NCBI RefSeq assembly: GCF_030406605.1
Contig: NZ_CP129104.1
Span: forward strand, 942,072-1,006,071
Reading direction: 5' to 3'
Source: Curtobacterium sp. 458
GTDB lineage: Bacteria > Actinomycetota > Actinomycetes > Actinomycetales > Microbacteriaceae
DNA length: 64,000 nt
Below, in pieces: positions 8,184 through 17,082 of this stretch. Every line of letters begins with the position of its first letter. The stretch's first letter is position 1. The position numbers and the translations under genes are program-made. The notes beneath the pieces were generated by a model. The model searched no databases. It had not been told where the DNA came from and saw only the letters and a program-made list of their open reading frames with translations.

Positions 8184-8275
8184 GACGCGGCACGGACGCA
8201 CGTCAGGTGTCGCCGGGTACCGTCCCGGACACCGACCGAACGACGCCCGGTGCGCCGGGCAGAGAGGGGCGATCG

Positions 8276-9031
8276 ATGACGATCGACCAGACGACGACCG
8301 TGGCCCGCGACCTGACGGACCGGACGGTGGTGGTCACCGGAGCAGCCGGCGGCATCGGCCGCGAGGTCGTGCGCCGCCTCCACGCCGCCGGCGCCGAAGT
8401 GGTCGCGGTCGACCTCCGCGAACCGACCGACGTCCCCGCGGGCGTGACGTCGGACACGGTCGACATCACTGATCCGGAGTCCCTGCGCGCGTTCGCGGAC
8501 CGGGTCGGCTCCGAGCACCCCGGCCGCATCGACCTGGTCAACGCGGCGGGCATCGTCGAGGACGACGTCGCCGCGGCGGAGATGTCCGCCGAACAGTTCC
8601 GCGGGGTCCTCGACGTCAACCTCGTCGGGGTGTTCCTCACCTCGCAGGCCCTCCACCGGGTGATGGCGGGGCGCGGTGGAGCAGCGATCGTGAGCATCGC
8701 GTCCATGTCCGGCAACCACGTCGTGAACCACCCGCAGAAGCAGGTCGCCTACAACGTGTCGAAGGCGGGCGTCACCGCGCTCACGAAGACCCTCGCCGTC
8801 GAGTGGGGGTCGGAGGGCATCCGGGTGAACTGCGTGTCACCCGGCTACGTGGACACACCGCTGCTCGCCAAGAAGCACCACCAGTTCGACGAGTGGATGC
8901 GGGACATCGTGCCGGGGCGGTTCGCGCAGCCGGCCGAGGTCGCGGCGGCGATCCACTTCCTGCTGAGTGACGCGGCCTCGTACTGCCACGGGACCGAGCT
9001 GCTGATGGACGGCGGCTACTCGCTGCGCTGA
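8276..9031 (+). CDS. SDR-family dehydrogenase, possible tetritol/sugar-alcohol dehydrogenase
   Basis: A 251-residue classical SDR. The cofactor motif is VTGAAGGIGRE with an Asp (VAVDLRE) that favours NAD(H), and catalytic Ser and Tyr-x-x-x-Lys lie in SIASMSGN and VAYNVSKAG. It ends DGGYSLR, common in polyol dehydrogenases. AGAGGGG precedes ATG 8276. The gene converges on, and overlaps by 16 bp, the last gene of the erythrulose operon, which suggests it could oxidise a tetritol to erythrulose, as DthD does in mycobacteria. Specificity is inferred from position only. Confidence 0.85.
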   Translation: MTIDQTTTVARDLTDRTVVVTGAAGGIGREVVRRLHAAGAEVVAVDLREPTDVPAGVTSDTVDITDPESLRAFADRVGSEHPGRIDLVNAAGIVEDDVAAAEMSAEQFRGVLDVNLVGVFLTSQALHRVMAGRGGAAIVSIASMSGNHVVNHPQKQVAYNVSKAGVTALTKTLAVEWGSEGIRVNCVSPGYVDTPLLAKKHHQFDEWMRDIVPGRFAQPAEVAAAIHFLLSDAASYCHGTELLMDGGYSLR

Positions 9032-9789
9032 CCGGGCAGGGTCAGCACCTCGTCGAGGATGGTGGTGATCGCGGCCGGGTCGTGGGCGAAGCGTCCGAGG
9101 AACAGTCCGCCGATCCGCCCCTGCCCACGGGTGAGCAGCCCCGGTCCGGCGCTGCCGCCGTAGATCACCGTGCTGCCAGTGAGTTCCGGCCGCGACGCGA
9201 GGTGCGCCTCGAGCCCGGCGAGCACGTCCACGATGTGGTCGTCCGGCGCGGGCGCCGGCGCACCGATCGCCCACACGGGCTCGTACGCGACGATCAGCGG
9301 CCCGGCGAGACCGTCCGCGGTCGCGGTGGCGAGCGAGCGGTCCAGTTGCGCGGTCACCTCGTCGATCGCGTCCGCACTGGAGGCACGGTGCGGCTCCCCG
9401 ACGCAGACCAGCGGCCGCAGGTGGTTGCGGTACGCCGCGTGCACCTTCCCCGCGACGTCCTCGTCGGTCTCGTGGAACAGGCTCCGCCGTTCGGCGTGGC
9501 CGATCTCGACGAGGTCGACGCCGATCTCACGGAGCTCGGCGCCGGAGACCTCTCCCGTGAACGCGCCCTCGTCGGCCCACGCCAGATCCTGCGCCCCGAG
9601 CAGCACCGGAGCATCGCCGATGACCTCACGCACGGGCACGAGCGCCGGGAACGTCGGGACGACGAAGAGCTGCGCGGCCCCGGAACGCACGGCGGGGTGC
9701 CGCTCGGCGATGTCCACCACCTGCCGGACCCAGTCGAGGGTCCGGGCGTGGGAGAAGTACGTCTTGAGCGACACCCCGACGAGCGTCAT
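9016..9789 (-). CDS. lerI: Triosephosphate isomerase-like, L-erythrulose-1-phosphate isomerase
   Basis: A 257-residue TIM-barrel aldose-ketose isomerase. The triosephosphate isomerase catalytic residues are present: Lys in VSLKTYF, His in IGHAERR and Glu in [10 protein letters not shown], with the phosphate-binding IYGGSAGPG. Sitting beside a dihydroxyacetone-kinase homologue and an RpiB homologue matches LerI, which turns L-erythrulose 1-phosphate into D-erythrulose 4-phosphate. A housekeeping tpiA would normally sit with gap and pgk instead. The start codon overlaps the stop of the RpiB homologue (ATGA). It is the last gene of the minus-strand operon. Confidence 0.85.
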
Positions 9790-10280
9790 GCGCGGTCGGC
9801 CCCCGTCGCGTCGATGCCCTCGGCCGCCGAGCCGTCGTAGGAGCAGATCGCCGCGACCTTCTCGGCGCTGGCAGAGGACGTGTCGAACTCGTACCCGAGC
9901 CACTCCTTCGCCAGCCGTCGTGCGAGTTCCAGCCCGATGACCCGCTGCCCCATGCAGAGCACCTGCGCGTCGTTCGACAGCACGGAACGCTCGACGCTGT
10001 AACTGTCGTGGGCGGTCACTGCTCGGATGCCCGGGACCTTGTTCGCGCTGATCGCGACGCCGAGCCCGGTGCCGCAGATCAGGATTGCCCGGTCGGCCTC
10101 GCCGTTCGCGACCATGCGTGCGGCGTCGACGGCGACGTGCGGGTAGGCGGTGTGCCCGTCCGCGTCCACGCCGACGTCGGCGACGTCCGAGACCCGCTCG
10201 TCCGCGAGCAGGTCGGCCTTGATCGCCTCCTTGTACTCGAAGCCGGCATCGTCCGATCCGACCACCAGTCGCAGCGTCAT
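9786..10280 (-). CDS. derI: RpiB-family isomerase, D-erythrulose-4-phosphate isomerase
   Basis: A 164-residue RpiB/LacAB-fold protein that interconverts ketose and aldose phosphates. The active-site Cys lies in [16 protein letters not shown] and the substrate-binding His/Asp in AHDSYSVER. In this context it most likely acts as DerI, making D-erythrose 4-phosphate for the pentose phosphate pathway. ATGA overlaps join it to both neighbours, so translation is coupled. It could also be a plain ribose-5-phosphate isomerase B. Confidence 0.87.
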
Positions 10281-12004
10281 CGTGCTGCTCCTTCCTCGAT
10301 GACCGAGGTCACCGTCTCGACGATCAATGCGAAGGACACCGCTCCGGGGTCCCGCGTCCCCACCGCCTGGTCGGCGTGGGTCTTGGCGCGTCCCTTCCGG
10401 GGCACGAGGTCAGCCGTGGCGTCCGCCGCCTCGCGGGCAGCGGTCGCCGCGGTGCGCCAGGCGTCCGCGGTCGACGCCCCACCCTCGACCGCGGCGCCGA
10501 AGGCCTCGTCGAACGGCACGAGGGCGTCCACCATCGTCTTGTCCCCGGGCACGGCACCGAAGGCCGACACCGCCGTGGTCGCGGCGTGCACCGCTTCCGC
10601 GAGCCGCGCCGACGACGGACGTGACTCGTCCCCGATGACGCGACCCAGTGCCTCCAGGGCGGCTCCCCAGATCGCTCCGGACGTCCCGCCGGCCTTGTCG
10701 GACCAGGCGTCGGCGGCGATCGCGAGGAGGCCGCCGGCTCCGACCTCGCGGTGCAACGCACCGGAAGCCGCCGCGTCCGCGGCGTGCGCCCCGCGCTGCA
10801 TGCCGATGCCGTGGTCGCCGTCGCCAGCGACCGCGTCCATCTCTCCGAGTTCGTCGACGTGCTCGTCGACGACGCGGCGCGCTGCGGCGAGCGCCGCGGC
10901 GACCCGTGCCGCGACCTCCTGCGACTCCGCGGTGCCGGTGCCGACCTCGATGCCGTCGGACGCCTCGAGCTCGGACTCCGGCAGCCGCTCGGCCGCGACC
11001 GCACCGCCCTTCCGGAACGCGGGGGTGTCGGCCGGCGCTGCCCAGAGCCGTTCGAGTTCCTCGTCGAGCCAGAACAGGGTGAGCGAGACGCCCGCCATGT
11101 CGAAGCTCGTGACGAGCTCGCCGACCTCGGGTTCGACGATGACGACGCCGGCGTCCTCGAGCAGTCTGGCCACCGAGCGGTAGACGACGAAGAGTTCCTC
11201 GTACTTCACGCTGCCGAGGCCGTTGAGGATCGGGACGGCCCGCGCACCGGACGCCGTGACGCCCGTCGGCAGCTCGTCGAGCAGGCGCGACACCAGGAGG
11301 GACGCGAGCCCCTCGGCCGTGGGTACCTCGGTCTCGTCGATGCCGCGTTCGCCGTGGATGCCCATGCCGATGGCCATCCGGTGTTCCGGGACCTCGAAGA
11401 GCGGTTCGGCGGCACCGGGGAGGGAGCACCCGGAGAACGCGACGCCGAACGAGCGGGTCCGGTCGTTGGCCCGCGACGCCACCGTGGTGACGTCGTCGAG
11501 GCTGCGCCCCTCCTCGGCGGCGGCCCCCGCGACCTTGAAGACGCAGAGGTCGCCGGCGATGCCGCGGCGCTCGGCGGTGCGGTCGGTGGGTGCGGACACG
11601 ACGTCGTCGGTGACCCGGACGGTCCGCACCGGGATGCCCTCGCCCTCGAGCGTGCGTGCGGCGGCGTCGAAGTTCAGGCAGTCACCCGCGTAGTTGCCGT
11701 ACGAGAACAGCACCCCGCCCCCGTGCTCGGCTGCTCGGGCGACCCCGGCGACCTGCTGCGCCGACGGACTGGCGAACAGGTTGCCCATCGCCGCGCCGGC
11801 CGCCAGCCCGTGCCCGACGAGTCCGCCGAACGCCGGGTAGTGCCCGGAGCCGCCGCCGATGACGACCGCGACCGTGCCGTCGGGACTGGTGGTGGCGCGG
11901 GCCACACCGCCGTGCACCCGGCGCACCCACCGCTGGTTGGCGAGGACGAACCCGTCCGCCGCCTCGTCCGCGAAGTCCGCGGGGTCGTTGAAGAGCCTGG
12001 TCAT
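10277..12004 (-). CDS. lerK: Dihydroxyacetone kinase family, L-erythrulose kinase
   Basis: A 575-residue fusion of DhaK (about 1-330) and DhaL (about 365-575), the ATP-using type. DhaK shows [10 protein letters not shown] and the covalent substrate His in GMGIHGERG; DhaL shows the Mg-binding aspartates in [16 protein letters not shown] and GGTSGAIWG. Such kinases phosphorylate C3 or C4 ketoses. With TIM-like and RpiB-like genes directly downstream, L-erythrulose (product 1-phosphate) is the best guess; dihydroxyacetone or D-erythrulose remain possible. It overlaps the MFS gene before it and the RpiB gene after it by 4 nt each. Confidence 0.87.
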
Positions 12005-13389
12005 CGTGTCGTCTCCTTCGACGCACTCGTCGCCACGTGTGAGGTGTCGAGCAGATCATCCGCCTTCGCGCCTCGGAAGAACTTCGTGCAGAAGATCATC
12101 ACGGCCGCCACGAACGCCAGGACACCGAGCGAGACGATGCCGAACGCGCCGCTGTCGGTCGGGACCACCTCGTTGATGGCCGTCCGCATGATCGGGGCCA
12201 CGAAGCCGCCGAGGTTGCCGAGCGAGTTGATGAGGCCGATGCCCGCGGCCGCCGCCGCCCCGGTGAGGAACGCCGTCGGGTACGCCCAGGTGATCGGGCC
12301 GACGGCGAGGAAGCTCGCCACGGCCAGGGTGATGAACAGGATGCCGAGGATGGGCTGCCCGTTCGCACCCGCCCACGCCGACCCGAGGATCGACAGGCCC
12401 GTCGTGACGTAGAACATGGTGCCCCAGCGACGACGCCGTCCGACGGTGTCCGCCTTCGAGCCGACGAGGTAGCAGGCGACGAGGCCGACGAGCCACGGGA
12501 TCGCGGCGACGAGGCCGACCTGCCAGCCGACGTCCTGCCCGAGGAGCGACGACACCTGCTGCGGCAGGTAGAACGTCGTGCCGTACACGGCGACCTGCAG
12601 GCAGAAGTAGATGATCGTGAAGTACCAGACGCGGCCGCTCGCCATCGCCTTCCAGATCCCCTTCGGGCCGTCCTCGTTCCGGGCGTGGTCCTCGCGGGCC
12701 ATCGCCGCCGTGAGGGACGCCTTCTGCCCGTCGTCGAGCCACTTCGCCTGCTGCGGGCTGTTCGTCAGGAAGAAGAGGGCCGCGACGCCGGCGAGCACCG
12801 CGAGGATGCCCTCGCCGAAGAACATGACCTGCCAGCCGTGGAACGGGGTGACCTGGTCGCCGACGCTGATGAGTCCGCCGGAGAGCGGTGCGCCGATCAT
12901 CTGCGAGAAGGGCTGCGCGAGGTAGAAGATCGCGAACATCCGCACGCGGACCTTGTTCGGGAACCACTCGGAGAGGTACATGATCACGCCCGGGAAGAGC
13001 CCGGCCTCGGTCACGCCGAGCAGGAAGCGCAGGATGATGAACATCGTGTCGTTCGTCGTGAACGAGAACAGCGCGGCGACGATGCCCCACGTGACGGCGA
13101 TGCGGGCGAGCCAGAAGCGGGCGCCGAACCGCTTGAGCAGCAGGTTCGACGGGATCTCGAAGATCGCGTAGCCGATGAAGAAGATGCCGGCGCCGAGCGC
13201 GAACGCGGCGTCGGAGATGTTGCGGTCGACGCTGAGGGCCTCTTCGGCGAACCCGACGTTCGTGCGGTCGAGGAAGGCGACGAAGTACAGGATGACGAGC
13301 ATCGGCATGAGGTGCTTCGTCGCCTTGCCGATCGCCGACTTCAGGGCGGGATCGTGGGTGGACCCCAGGGCGGGGCTGGTTGCGGACAC
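12001..13389 (-). CDS. MFS transporter, anion:cation symporter (ACS) family
   Basis: A 462-residue integral membrane protein with about twelve hydrophobic segments. The ACS signature FLDRTNVGFAEEAL follows TM1, and a second motif, FRGAKADDLL, closes the C-terminal tail. ACS carriers import organic or sugar acids (tartrate, hexuronate, gluconate-like) with protons. This supports an acid rather than a neutral sugar as the operon's substrate. The start is GTG 13389 with AAGGAG upstream. A 108-nt gap to the gene before it contains small hairpins (for example ACGCC-TGTG-GGCGT) that could adjust expression. Confidence 0.88.
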   Translation of the reverse strand: MSATSPALGSTHDPALKSAIGKATKHLMPMLVILYFVAFLDRTNVGFAEEALSVDRNISDAAFALGAGIFFIGYAIFEIPSNLLLKRFGARFWLARIAVTWGIVAALFSFTTNDTMFIILRFLLGVTEAGLFPGVIMYLSEWFPNKVRVRMFAIFYLAQPFSQMIGAPLSGGLISVGDQVTPFHGWQVMFFGEGILAVLAGVAALFFLTNSPQQAKWLDDGQKASLTAAMAREDHARNEDGPKGIWKAMASGRVWYFTIIYFCLQVAVYGTTFYLPQQVSSLLGQDVGWQVGLVAAIPWLVGLVACYLVGSKADTVGRRRRWGTMFYVTTGLSILGSAWAGANGQPILGILFITLAVASFLAVGPITWAYPTAFLTGAAAAAGIGLINSLGNLGGFVAPIMRTAINEVVPTDSGAFGIVSLGVLAFVAAVMIFCTKFFRGAKADDLLDTSHVATSASKETTR

Positions 13390-13497
13390 GGTCGCTCCTT
13401 CGCGATCGGGTGGTCTGACTGGAGGCACGACTCACGACGAGCACACCGGCTCGCTCTGGTCGTGGGGCTGGGTCGGCCCAGTACGCCTGTGGGCGTT

Positions 13498-14259
13498 TCA
13501 GTGCATGTAGAGGCCGCCGTCGACGTTCAGCGTCTGCCCGGTGACGAACCCGGCGTCCTCGCTGATGAGGTAGGCGATCGCCGCCGCGATGTCCCGCGGG
13601 GTGCCGATGCGCGGGAGCACACCGTCGGCCGCCATCGCGGTCTTGCGCTCCTCGGAGAGCGTGCCGCCCATGATGTCGGTGTCGATCGGACCGGGCGAGA
13701 TCGCGTTGACGGTGATCCCCCGGTGGCCGAGCTCGCGGGCCATGCCACGGGTGAGACCGATGACCCCGGCCTTCGCGACCGAGTACGGCGTCTTGCTGAA
13801 CGTGCCGCCGCCGCGCTGGGCGGAGACCGACGACAGGTTCACGATGCGGCCGTACCCGCGCTCGACCATGGACTGCGCTGCCCGGAGGCTCGCGAAGTGC
13901 ACGCCGTCGAGGTTGATGCTCAGGACCCGGTGCCACTCCCCCTCGGGCAGGTCGAGGTACTCGTGCGCGGACGAGACGCCCGCGAGGTTCACGAGCGCCG
14001 CGATCGGCGGCAGCGCGGCTTCGATCGTGTCGAACGCGGCGCGGACGGCGGCCTCGTCCGCGACGTTCGCCCCGGCGCCGACGGCCTGGACGCCGTGCTG
14101 GTCGCGGAGCTCGGCGGCGACCTGCTCGCTCGCGGCCTGGTCGAGGTCGATGATGCCGACGTTCCAGCCCTGCCCGGCGAGGTGGTGGGCCGTGGCCCGG
14201 CCGATCCCGCGCGGGGAGGCGGCGCCGGTGAGGACGACGGTCTGCTGTTCGGTGCTCAT
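13498..14259 (-). CDS. SDR-family dehydrogenase (FabG-like)
   Basis: A 253-residue classical SDR. It has LTGAASPRGIGRATA with an Asp (GIIDLDQ) after strand 2 that points to NAD(H), plus NLAG, Ser in NLSSVS and the Tyr-x-x-x-Lys in TPYSVAKAG. It ends VDGGLYMH. It lies 11 nt downstream of the 3-hydroxyacid dehydrogenase in the sugar-acid operon and probably carries out another oxidation of the pathway substrate (lactol, polyol or hydroxyl group). Exact reaction unknown. Confidence 0.88.
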   Translation of the reverse strand: MSTEQQTVVLTGAASPRGIGRATAHHLAGQGWNVGIIDLDQAASEQVAAELRDQHGVQAVGAGANVADEAAVRAAFDTIEAALPPIAALVNLAGVSSAHEYLDLPEGEWHRVLSINLDGVHFASLRAAQSMVERGYGRIVNLSSVSAQRGGGTFSKTPYSVAKAGVIGLTRGMARELGHRGITVNAISPGPIDTDIMGGTLSEERKTAMAADGVLPRIGTPRDIAAAIAYLISEDAGFVTGQTLNVDGGLYMH

Positions 14260-14270
14260 GCTCGGTCCCC

Positions 14271-15224
14271 TCAGTGGATCGGGGCCGGGCCGAGGTCGTC
14301 GAGGAGCTTCTGCATCGCGACGTAAGCCTTGTTCCGGTAGGCGACCAGCTCGGGCGTGCGGTCGGCGGGCACGTCGAGGTACCCGGCGCCGGACTTCGTG
14401 CCGAGTTCACCGGCGTCGACGTGCTGCTGGAGCGACGGCGGCGTGGCGAAGCGCTCGGGCCAGCGGGTCTGCAGCGACTCGAAGCAGAACGCGTACACGT
14501 CGAGCCCGGCCATGTCGGCGATCGCGAACGGGCCGAAGAACGGCAGGCGGAACCCGAAGGTGGTGCGGACGATGGTGTCGATGTCGTCCGGGCTCGCGAT
14601 GCCCTCGTCGGCGATCTTCGTCGCTTCCTCGAACAGGGCGTACTGCAGGCGGTTGAGCACGAAGCCCGTGGAGTCCTTCACCCGGGCGGACTGCTTGCCG
14701 GTCGCAGCGACGACGGTCTCACCGACCTCGATCGCGTGCTCGTTCGTGGTCGGGTGCGGGATGAGCTCGACGCCGGGGATGAACGGCGCCGGGTTCGAGA
14801 AGTGCACGCCCAGGAATCGCTCCGGACCCACGACTGCCTCGGCGAGCGACTCGATGAGGATCGTCGAGGTGTTCGACCCGATGACGGCGTCCGGGCGCGC
14901 GGCCTCGCTGATCCGACGGAGCGTGGCGTGCTTGATCTCGAGCTTCTCGGGCACGGCCTCCTCGATGAAGTCGGCCGTGGCGACCGCTTCCTCGATGGAG
15001 TCGGCGGCGCTGAGGTGGGCGTCCACGCGCGCCACGGCGTCCGCGGGGAACAGGCCGTCCGCGACGAACTGTTCGGTCTCGGCGATGAGCCGGGCGCGGT
15101 TGGACGCGGCGATCTCGGCCGAGACGTCCGCGATCCGGACGGTGTGGCCGGCGAGGGCCAGGACCTGGGCGATCCCGCCGCCCATGTAGCCGGACCCGAC
15201 GACGGCGATGTCGAGGGTGCTCAT
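14271..15224 (-). CDS. 3-hydroxyacyl-CoA dehydrogenase-family, beta-hydroxyacid dehydrogenase
   Basis: A 317-residue two-domain NAD enzyme. VVGSGYMGGGIAQVLALAG is the N-terminal Rossmann loop, EAVPEKLEIK and SNTSTI are family motifs, the catalytic His lies in GVHFSNPAPFIPGVELI, and the helical C-terminal domain contains GFVLNRLQYALFEEA. In catabolic operons without thiolase genes these proteins usually oxidise the 3-hydroxyl of a free sugar acid (as L-gulonate 3-dehydrogenase does) or of carnitine. Next to a TIM barrel and the erythrulose genes, a 3-oxo acid product is likely. AAGGAG precedes the ATG; its start overlaps the TIM-barrel stop. Confidence 0.88.
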   Translation of the reverse strand: MSTLDIAVVGSGYMGGGIAQVLALAGHTVRIADVSAEIAASNRARLIAETEQFVADGLFPADAVARVDAHLSAADSIEEAVATADFIEEAVPEKLEIKHATLRRISEAARPDAVIGSNTSTILIESLAEAVVGPERFLGVHFSNPAPFIPGVELIPHPTTNEHAIEVGETVVAATGKQSARVKDSTGFVLNRLQYALFEEATKIADEGIASPDDIDTIVRTTFGFRLPFFGPFAIADMAGLDVYAFCFESLQTRWPERFATPPSLQQHVDAGELGTKSGAGYLDVPADRTPELVAYRNKAYVAMQKLLDDLGPAPIH

Positions 15225-16225
15225 CGAGTTGCTCCTTGCTTCGTCGCCCCGACCACCGAGGTGGCGAGGACGGATCGGATGTACTGCTGGTTGGCCGCGC
15301 AGACGCCGAGGCTGTCCCCGCCGTACTGCTCCGTCATGACGATGCCGCGGAACCCGTCGGCGACGGCGTCCCGGAGCACCTGGCGGTAGTTGATGAGTCC
15401 GGTCTCCATGGTGCTCGGCGCACTCGTCGCCCAGCTGCCGTCGCCGGCTTCGTCGCGCGTGTAGTTCTTGACGTGGAGGTAGTTCGTGTACGGCAGGGTC
15501 TTCGCGAAGAGCTCCTTCCAGTCCTCCACCGGACGGTGCAGACGGATGAGGTTCGCGACGTCCGCGTTCAGGCCGACGGTGTCCAGTCCGATCTCCTCGA
15601 CCAGGCGGACCGCGCTGTCGGCGGTGCCGAGGTAGGTGTCCTCGTACAGCTCGAGTGCCATCGGCAGTCCGACGCTCGCGGCGTGCTCCCCGAGCTCCCG
15701 GAGGCGCTTCACCGCGGCGTCCCACACCTCGGGGTCGTCGGGGTCCTCCGGGCCCGGTGCCGTCCAGAACCAGAGGGCCTTCCGCTGCGCCTCGGTGAAC
15801 GGCTGGTGCAGGCCCGTCGAGAACACCTGCATGCCCCACTCGGCCGCGGCGTCGATGGTCCGGTGCGCGTACGCGAGGTTGTCCTCCTCGTGCCCGGGCT
15901 GGATGACGCTCTTCCGCTGCAGGTGCACGGAGGGGATGCCGACCCCGTGCGCCGCGGCGACCGCGAAGAGTTCGTCACGTCGGGACCGCTCGAGGTCAGC
16001 GGGGCGGATGTGGCTGTCGGCGAGTTCGGCGAGCGAGAAGCCCGCGGACGCGATCTGTGCGAAGACGTCGTCCCAGACCTCGGCGGGCGCGTCGTGGAAG
16101 GCCGTCCCGTCGCGGGTGACCTGGGCGAACCCGTGCAGGCAGGCGGCGATCGGCCACGTCTCGTCGGTCCAGGTCGTCGGGTCCCAATCCTGGGTGACCC
16201 AGTCCTGTGGTGATGCCACGTGCAT
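15221..16225 (-). CDS. Xylose-isomerase-like TIM barrel protein, possible 3-oxo-sugar-acid decarboxylase
   Basis: A 334-residue protein of the sugar phosphate isomerase/epimerase (AP_endonuc_2) superfamily. The metal ligands fit the fold: Glu in LELYEDTYLG, Asp in LNADVANLI, His in NYLHVKNY and Glu in VMTEQYGG. It is the first gene of the operon, directly after the palindromic operator. Members isomerise, epimerise or decarboxylate; OiaC of apionate catabolism is a TIM-barrel decarboxylase that gives L-erythrulose. Because the operon's other enzymes start at L-erythrulose and include a beta-hydroxyacid dehydrogenase, a decarboxylase role is attractive but unproven. No signal peptide. Confidence 0.83.
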   Translation of the reverse strand: MHVASPQDWVTQDWDPTTWTDETWPIAACLHGFAQVTRDGTAFHDAPAEVWDDVFAQIASAGFSLAELADSHIRPADLERSRRDELFAVAAAHGVGIPSVHLQRKSVIQPGHEEDNLAYAHRTIDAAAEWGMQVFSTGLHQPFTEAQRKALWFWTAPGPEDPDDPEVWDAAVKRLRELGEHAASVGLPMALELYEDTYLGTADSAVRLVEEIGLDTVGLNADVANLIRLHRPVEDWKELFAKTLPYTNYLHVKNYTRDEAGDGSWATSAPSTMETGLINYRQVLRDAVADGFRGIVMTEQYGGDSLGVCAANQQYIRSVLATSVVGATKQGATR

Positions 16226-16264: not shown

Positions 16265-16282
16265 TCTTTCCTATAGGAAAGA
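16265..16282. promoter_or_regulatory. Perfect 18-bp palindrome, candidate GntR/FCD operator
   Basis: TCTTTCCTATAGGAAAGA is its own reverse complement. It lies between the GntR/FCD gene and the operon start, 40 nt upstream of the first ATG, in an AT-rich patch unlike its surroundings. Minus-strand -10-like sequences (TATAGG, TATCTT) fall inside or beside it, so a bound repressor would block the promoter. Confidence 0.7.
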
Positions 16283-16365: not shown

Positions 16366-17082
16366 TCAGGCGCCGTGTGACGCGTCGGCGCGCGACCGGA
16401 CCCGCACGTTGTCGATGTGCACACGCATCGCCGACACCGCCGCCGACGGGCTGATCGCGAGCGCGTCGAGGATCGACCGGTGCTCCGCCACCGCACGCGA
16501 GGTGTCGTCGTCCCCACCCCCGACGATCTGCCGCATCCGGTGCACGCGCGTGGTGATGATCTCGGACATCTCCTCGAGGAACGGGTTGTGCGTCGCGTCG
16601 AAGAGCACCTGGTGGAAGTCCCAGTCGCTGCGGAAGAAGCGGGCCATGAGTTCGTCGGGCACCGTCCCGACCTCGATCGCGGCGACCTCGGCGGCGACGT
16701 CGGACTGCACCGCGAGCGCGGCGTCGAGCCGGGTCCGGAGCGCCTCGACGTCCCCGCGCGCGGCGAGTTCGACGGCGCCGCTCTCGACGATGAGCCGGGC
16801 GTCGAACAGCGCCTCGAGCTGGTCGCCGGCGAGGGGCGGGGCGACGCGGTACCCCTTGTTCGCCTCGCGGGTGACGAGTCCGGTCCGCTCGAGCTGGACG
16901 AGCGCCTCACGCACCGGCGTGGGCGAGACGCCGAGGGTCCGGGCGAGCCCGTCGATCGACAGGCGCATGCCCGGCTCGACGTCGTGGCCCATGAGGAACT
17001 CGAGCACGCGGTCGTACACCCGGTCGCGCAGTCCGAGCTGCGTGATCCGCTCACTGCCGAACCCGGCCATGGTGCTCGTCAT
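16366..17082 (-). CDS. GntR-family regulator, FCD subfamily
   Basis: A 238-residue repressor-type protein. The winged HTH spans about residues 18-82 (LRDRVYDRVLEFL, RLSIDGLARTLGVSPTPVREAL, RTGLVTREANKGYRV). The FCD all-helical ligand domain follows (LFDARLIVESGAVELAA; metal-site residues in DWDFHQVLF and the late His in RAVAEHRSILDAL). It most likely controls the adjacent sugar-acid operon in response to a sugar acid or a phosphate ester. ATG 17082 follows a TATGAT box by 6 nt, so it is probably leaderless. Confidence 0.92.
   Translation of the reverse strand: MTSTMAGFGSERITQLGLRDRVYDRVLEFLMGHDVEPGMRLSIDGLARTLGVSPTPVREALVQLERTGLVTREANKGYRVAPPLAGDQLEALFDARLIVESGAVELAARGDVEALRTRLDAALAVQSDVAAEVAAIEVGTVPDELMARFFRSDWDFHQVLFDATHNPFLEEMSEIITTRVHRMRQIVGGGDDDTSRAVAEHRSILDALAISPSAAVSAMRVHIDNVRVRSRADASHGA

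Follow-up and report, generated by a model that had tools for sequence, protein, structure and literature searches.

The operon described here lies at positions 9016–16225 of the window, the whole 64,000-nucleotide stretch of Curtobacterium sp. 458 DNA that was analysed (contig NZ_CP129104.1, positions 942,072 to 1,006,071; the genome is a single contig of 3.68 Mb). Its seven genes, all on the minus strand, form one coupled operon according to a Pfam domain search of the window proteins (E 0.001) and the sequence, and together with an adjacent regulator gene and a palindrome they suggest a route from a sugar acid to L-erythrulose. The features of this region are as follows.

16366–17082, minus strand: GntR regulator gene of the FCD type (PF07729 FCD, 70.5 bits; PF00392 GntR, 52.3 bits)
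16266–16281, no strand: candidate operator, the palindrome CTTTCCTATAGGAAAG with the core TCCTATAGGA at 16269–16278 (from the sequence)
15221–16225, minus strand: PF01261 TIM barrel, proposed 3-oxo acid decarboxylase (PF01261, 84.8 bits)
14271–15224, minus strand: 3HCDH-family dehydrogenase, proposed to oxidise C3 of the acid (PF02737, 162 bits; PF00725, 80 bits)
13498–14259, minus strand: short-chain dehydrogenase/reductase (SDR) (PF13561, 212 bits)
12001–13389, minus strand: major facilitator superfamily (MFS) transporter, best match the D-galactonate transporter subfamily (PF07690, 161 bits; TIGR00893, 277 bits, cut-off 395)
10277–12004, minus strand: DhaK-DhaL kinase, LerK type (Dak1, 363–365 bits; Dak2, 145 bits; NF011049, 721 bits, cut-off 492)
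9786–10280, minus strand: RpiB-like isomerase (LacAB_rpiB), DerI type (PF02502, 158 bits; TIGR02133, 207 bits, cut-off 168; NF051858, 151.5 bits, cut-off 240)
9016–9789, minus strand: TIM-like isomerase, LerI type (PF00121, 171 bits; below the cut-offs of NF000722 and TIGR00419)

The GntR gene and the palindrome are part of the operon unit. Of the six junctions within the operon, four are ATGA four-base overlaps (TIM barrel/3HCDH, MFS/kinase, kinase/RpiB-like and RpiB-like/TIM-like); at the remaining two, 11 bases separate the 3HCDH stop from the SDR start and 108 bases separate the SDR stop from the MFS start. The MFS start, GTG at 13389, is preceded by AAGGAG. Judging from the sequence, the TIM-like gene most likely starts at the ATG at 9789 rather than at 9903, and the TIM barrel may start at the GTG at 16219 instead of the ATG at 16225. 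A scan for promoters and terminators returned no promoter-like site and two terminator-like sites, about the same as in shuffled sequence. The Pfam families, the gene order and the strand all confirmed the seven-gene coupled operon described in the initial annotation. The label "acid-type" that it gave to the MFS transporter agrees with the best match, TIGR00893, at a score that stays below the cut-off of that model.

We propose, with a probability of roughly 0.55, that the operon encodes a dedicated catabolic route in which a C5 sugar acid would be oxidised at C3, decarboxylated to L-erythrulose and converted to erythrose 4-phosphate. We infer every catalytic step, the match of regulator and operator, and the substrate as follows. 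The MFS transporter would import the acid, the 3HCDH-family enzyme would oxidise its C3 hydroxyl with NAD+ to give a 3-oxo acid, and the metal-dependent TIM barrel would decarboxylate this product to L-erythrulose. The kinase would then form L-erythrulose 1-phosphate, the TIM-like isomerase would convert it to D-erythrulose 4-phosphate, and the RpiB-like isomerase would turn this into D-erythrose 4-phosphate, which feeds the pentose phosphate pathway. The LerI step interconverts the 1-phosphate and the 4-phosphate of a tetrulose; since loss of CO2 from the 3-oxo form of a C5 acid gives a C4 ketose, such a step makes sense here. The SDR is probably accessory and might, for instance, handle an epimer or a lactone.

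Conservation of the gene set was examined in a genome-collection scan for TIM-barrel relatives, which confirmed 569 loci; the counts given here cover the best 80 of them. The 3HCDH gene was present in 75 of the 80 loci, always directly downstream of the TIM barrel and on the same strand, and a LerK-type kinase lay in the same stretch in 70. A LerI-type gene accompanied them in 64 loci and a DerI-type gene in 51. With identity limits of at least 33% for GntR and at least 60% for the SDR and MFS, these three genes were found in 75, 65 and 63 loci, respectively. The kinase was not found in ten of the 80 loci (L030, L040, L052, L070, L072, L076, L077, L079, L080, and L083); among these, the contig ends in L077 and L079, and an RpiB-like gene stands at the edge of the stretch covered in L072. 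Among the loci without an RpiB-like gene (L012–L032, L082, and others), many of those from Curtobacterium retain the kinase and the TIM-like gene. A survey of neighbouring genes covered 66 loci, including only three of L007–L032.

The association extends beyond these loci. In 148 genomes of one genus, taken as Mycobacterium, 11 carried the TIM barrel, and all seven of the loci examined among them had the TIM barrel, 3HCDH, kinase, LerI-like and GntR genes, with a DerI-like gene in five. These seven loci contained no SDR copy at 60% identity or more (matches were absent, or at 32–37% and farther off). Among 396 genomes of the phylum, 42 gave some TIM-barrel match, only four of them near full length (43–100% identity), and the four genomes with the best 3HCDH matches (54–100%) were the same four that have a true TIM-barrel relative. 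The kinase was present in 20 of the 396 genomes and must therefore have other partners; in G074 its neighbours were ABC-transporter-like and alcohol-dehydrogenase-like genes (L193; labels from reading the translations).

The dehydrogenase matches 3HCDH_N and 3HCDH across nearly its full length. Alignments with solved 3HCDH proteins showed that it keeps the NTST, GVHFSNP, VELI and NRL motif positions, and the Ser, His-Glu and Asn motifs among them (NTS, HFxNP, E, and NRL) are presumably the catalytic motifs of L-3-hydroxyacyl-CoA dehydrogenases. The operon contains no CoA-related gene. The closest solved 3HCDH relative is not lambda-crystallin, which scored 112 bits and came after 27 other sequences in the list, the best of them at 169 bits. 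No PF16896 match was found in the window dehydrogenase at E 0.001, and the one PF16896 match of the genome lies in another cluster. Identity of the 3HCDH protein with ApnO was rejected because it lacks PF16896 and an ApnO-like protein is encoded in that separate cluster; the presence of PF02737 and PF00725 without PF16896 agrees with the earlier view that the oxidase is not ApnO. Distant 3HCDH relatives (L189, L190, and L191; 43–56%) were seen away from any TIM-barrel relative, with an SDR match near L189 and L190.

Across bacteria, this TIM barrel is found with two unrelated kinds of beta-hydroxyacid dehydrogenase, 3HCDH and PdxA-like. A PdxA-like enzyme replaces 3HCDH in four of the five loci that lack it (L081 from Glycomyces and L084–L086 from Agrococcus), where TctC/TctA genes are also present instead; L083 has neither a 3HCDH nor a PdxA-like gene. 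The fifth PdxA-like gene among the 80 loci is in L062 (6210–18371; a metagenome-assembled genome of Agrococcus), which holds both the 3HCDH-SDR-MFS set and a PdxA-Tct set in one locus. In a plasmid collection, 98 records had a TIM-barrel relative; the three examined (Sinorhizobium meliloti pSymB, Shinella, and Pararhizobium; 48–50% identity) carry GntR, a PdxA-like gene, TctCBA, the TIM barrel and the kinase. Oxidation at C3 is favoured by this exchange of beta-hydroxyacid dehydrogenases and by the retained 3HCDH motifs. The importers interchange likewise among three unrelated acid-type families, MFS, GntP (355 bits against a cut-off of 293) and TctA/TctC. Of the 17 loci without an MFS gene at 60% identity, four had TctA and one had GntP, and the Mycobacterium-type loci carried GntP in six cases and MFS in one.

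The predicted operator was counted in the 80 loci (1,589,262 bp), each site being assigned to the nearest gene start at a distance of at most 400 bp. The core TCCTATAGGA occurred 113 times against 0.26 expected from base composition: 69 sites belonged to the TIM barrel, 38 to the kinase, two to PdxA (L062 and L084) and one to OtnK (L048). Of the three unassigned sites, the one in L053, at 16557, immediately precedes a second MFS gene, and a second MFS-like match is also near those in L054 and L057. L062 has one core site each in front of its kinase, TIM-barrel and PdxA operons. The core has one exact site in the 3.68 Mb genome itself (reversed control, 0), and the apionate-type cluster described below contains none. 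The shared core in front of entry and kinase genes would most simply mean that the two operons form one regulon, and the adjacent GntR protein presumably acts at this predicted site. That the operon is fed by an acid and aimed at L-erythrulose, as first claimed, is supported by the interchange of acid-type importers, the retention of 3HCDH next to the TIM-barrel gene (75 of the 80 loci) and the operator shared by kinase and entry genes.

The same genome contains a second kinase–isomerase cluster, L122 (7106–14223; about 3430–3437 kb of C1), which encodes an MFS transporter (41%), a kinase (76%), an RpiB-like protein (86%), a TIM-like protein (94%), a 281-residue PF01261 protein and a PF16896 protein, as well as a GntR-like gene (label from reading the translation). 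In its PF16896 protein we saw a similarity to PDB 5t57 and a weak one to ketol-acid reductoisomerases, as expected of an oxidoisomerase; we take ApnO to be a PF16896 protein, and clusters of this type to be the D-apionate route. The names ApnO and OiaC in L122 are given by context, and the cluster is an apparent D-apionate route. That route reportedly runs through ApnO, OiaC, LerK, LerI and DerI, as described by Carter et al. in 2018. The work on it is cited in the part of PMC6302742 available to us. The same gene set was found in G246 (L149), in G257 without LerI (L150), and on an Erwinia plasmid with rpiB on the opposite strand. Two other PF16896 loci at 37% identity (L151 and L152) gave no match to the kinase, the isomerases or the OiaC-like protein. 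Since the genome has a separate ApnO/OiaC-like cluster, the operon in the window would be a second route. The two LerI copies share a tract of about 500 bp (9116–9615 in the window; near 3432 kb of C1 in the L122 copy) with 97–100% DNA identity, compared with 59–95% in the other 100-bp windows of the aligned kinase–isomerase region. This gene-conversion-like pattern suggests that the two LerI enzymes may be able to replace each other.

The closest solved structure to the TIM barrel is PDB 5tnv from Mycobacterium smegmatis. E192, D222, H251 and E299, which we take to be the four metal-binding residues of PF01261 epimerases and isomerases, are invariant in 25 aligned sequences and kept in the ten tree rows shown; R104, R228, R231 and K253 are also invariant among the 25. 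The initial annotation had likened the protein to OiaC. In the PF01261 tree, which contains no function-labelled OtnI, D-apiose isomerase or 3-epimerase and in which the OiaC-like rows are named by context only, window-type and OiaC-like proteins form separate clades with support of 100/99 each. Orthology with OiaC was rejected on this basis, and the OiaC-like protein sits in the separate cluster. NCBIfam models gave only two weak matches for the TIM barrel, far below cut-off; among the three OiaC-like proteins, one was matched weakly and the others not at all. An alternative that we consider doubtful, though worth weighing, is that the TIM barrel acts as an epimerase or as an isomerase: the 3-oxo acid would lose CO2 spontaneously or on the dehydrogenase to give D-erythrulose, which the TIM barrel would convert to L-erythrulose, or the TIM barrel would interconvert 2-oxo and 3-oxo acids as OtnI does. 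Its known structural neighbours are indeed epimerases, isomerases and (de)hydratases, which also counts against a decarboxylase. However, D-erythrulose would need no LerI if it were phosphorylated directly, and the invariant R104, R228, R231 and K253 would suit an acid substrate, which is a weak argument.

The kinase and the TIM-like and RpiB-like isomerases are encoded together and are distinct from the canonical triose-phosphate isomerase (TPI) and DhaK. Better matches to both lie elsewhere in the genome (TPI, 284 against 171 bits; DhaK, 438 against 363–365 bits), and an ordinary dihydroxyacetone operon was rejected for this reason. No LerK- or LerI-named model was among the NCBIfam matches of the window proteins. 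LerI and DerI together convert L-erythrulose 1-phosphate to erythrose 4-phosphate according to excerpts of PMC10733421. A route through L-erythrulose is favoured because of the better TPI and DhaK elsewhere, because L122 and L149 carry this trio together with ApnO/OiaC-like genes, and because of the near-identical DNA tract (97–100%) of the two LerI copies. It is unlikely that the operon instead acts on a C4 acid, threonate or erythronate, which C3 oxidation and decarboxylation would turn into dihydroxyacetone and then its phosphate, with the TIM-like enzyme serving as a triose-phosphate isomerase. OtnK-like kinase genes do stand beside the cluster in 15 of the 80 loci and LtnD-like genes in 13 (e.g., L042, L053, L061, L067, and L078), and the kinase model is named dihydroxyacetone kinase family protein; but this pathway would leave the RpiB-like enzyme without a role, and the TIM-like protein scores under the triose-phosphate isomerase cut-offs in a genome that has the better TPI and DhaK. 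A branched substrate, either an apionate isomer or an acid branched at C2, which had originally been put beside a five-carbon acid, with the 3HCDH protein in place of ApnO in an apionate-like route, is improbable: the lower module and the position of the PF01261 protein match the ApnO/OiaC-type cluster, but the genome already has that cluster, and the 3HCDH protein lacks PF16896 and keeps motifs presumably meant for secondary alcohols.

If the proposed C5 route ends in L-erythrulose, C4 of a straight-chain acid is fixed in the L form. By analogy with known enzymes, the likeliest substrate class would be an L-pentonate, with L-arabinonate as the first candidate. 3HCDH enzymes oxidise the C3 hydroxyl that is drawn left in the Fischer projection (L-3-hydroxyacyl-CoA, L-carnitine, and L-gulonate), and PdxA enzymes oxidise the one drawn right (4-phosphohydroxy-L-threonine and D-threonate 4-phosphate). 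We therefore hypothesise that L-arabinonate or L-ribonate would be the substrate of the 3HCDH form and L-lyxonate or L-xylonate that of the PdxA form. One common 3-oxo acid would arise from L-arabinonate and L-lyxonate, or from L-ribonate and L-xylonate. Tentatively, and with the odds against the full scheme, the two dehydrogenases of opposite C3 stereospecificity might converge, within one GntR regulon, on a 3-oxo-L-pentonate decarboxylase that belongs to a new PF01261 clade and forms L-erythrulose. Ascorbate breakdown products give rise to L-lyxonate and L-xylonate, according to the portion of PMC11066805 consulted.

Several observations weigh against the proposed route. The TIM barrel falls outside the OiaC clade, and the 80 loci behind the counts are the closest relatives, many of them from Curtobacterium. 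The DerI-like protein reaches 151.5 of the 240 bits needed for the DerI model NF051858 and exceeds the cut-off of TIGR02133, the actinobacterial ribose-5-phosphate isomerase model (207 against 168). A DerI-type gene was not found in 29 of the 80 loci, and neither LerI nor DerI had a match within the 10 kb flanks of the three rhizobial plasmid loci. PdxA enzymes often decarboxylate their products themselves, and a separate decarboxylase would then be redundant. The exact core site is lacking in seven of the 80 loci (L026, L031, L034, L076, L080, L081, and L083), and no importer was identified in 12 of the 17 loci without MFS. G008, one of the four genomes with a true TIM-barrel relative, has a second 3HCDH copy (55%, L189) that lies away from TIM-barrel relatives, and 3HCDH copies at 42–46% occur in 12 further genomes of the 396. 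The OtnK-like and LtnD-like neighbours would fit an acid-sugar theme, but also a C4 acid.

The lower half of the pathway looks like the known L-erythrulose module, and the entry half looks new. The routes for threonate and erythronate (OtnK, OtnI, LtnD, and PdxA2) phosphorylate the acid before decarboxylation. They resemble the present system in using acid sugars, and PdxA-like and OtnK/LtnD-like genes adjoin some TIM-barrel clusters, but the operon in the window has no OtnK or PdxA-like gene. The D-apionate route likewise leads from a sugar acid through L-erythrulose to erythrose 4-phosphate and has a dehydrogenase and the LerK/LerI/DerI trio next to a PF01261 protein; the window differs in having 3HCDH for the PF16896 ApnO-like protein, another PF01261 clade and its own regulator site. 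The tetritol routes of M. smegmatis use LerK, LerI, DerI and EltD (Huang et al. 2015, as given in excerpts of PMC10733421). They share the kinase and the two isomerases with our operon, but their entry consists of polyol dehydrogenases, whereas that of the window consists of an acid transporter, a 3HCDH enzyme and a TIM barrel. In the sections of PMC12435205 available to us, L-gulonate 3-dehydrogenase (CRYL1, lambda-crystallin) and then a separate 3-dehydro-L-gulonate decarboxylase convert L-gulonate to L-xylulose, and natural 3HCDH–decarboxylase fusions occur in three rotifer genera. There too a 3HCDH-family enzyme oxidises C3 of an aldonate and a separate enzyme decarboxylates the product to a ketose; the difference is that a C6 acid gives a pentulose and that the decarboxylase, DUF1907 (C11orf54), is unrelated to PF01261.

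A literature search found no description of such a pathway, which is weak evidence of absence because most subscription journals were outside the search. Searching for apionate together with erythrulose found nothing, and a search on pentonate 3-dehydrogenases returned matches for gulonate 3-dehydrogenase only. If the proposal is correct, sugar acids have a second entry into tetrulose metabolism, and the TIM-barrel family of PDB 5tnv, which has a solved structure but no assigned function, gains one. It would also suggest how plant-associated bacteria use C5 acids, for example from vitamin C or L-arabinose, and name a regulator, a likely operator and a gene set that can be tested in tractable strains. 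PMC12780249 gives an independent hint: according to its accessible text, Curtobacterium isolates were obtained from enrichments on L-erythrulose (Eru-6) and D-erythrose (Ery-28b), Ery-28b was among four strains with good growth on one of the two tetroses, and the authors call the required transporters and kinases unreported. The modules in the window and in L122 are candidates for tetrose growth of Curtobacterium.

A convergent SDR gene at 8207–9031 of the window shares 16 bases with the 3' end of the TIM-like gene. It was rejected as a member of the system, since a close linked copy (95%) was found only in C. luteum (L007). On plasmids of Paracoccus (L170) and Pararhizobium (L171), OiaC-related TIM barrels have as neighbours a kinase annotated as DhaL, transketolase halves, an SDR and TRAP transporters; this may be a D-apiose/apulose route.

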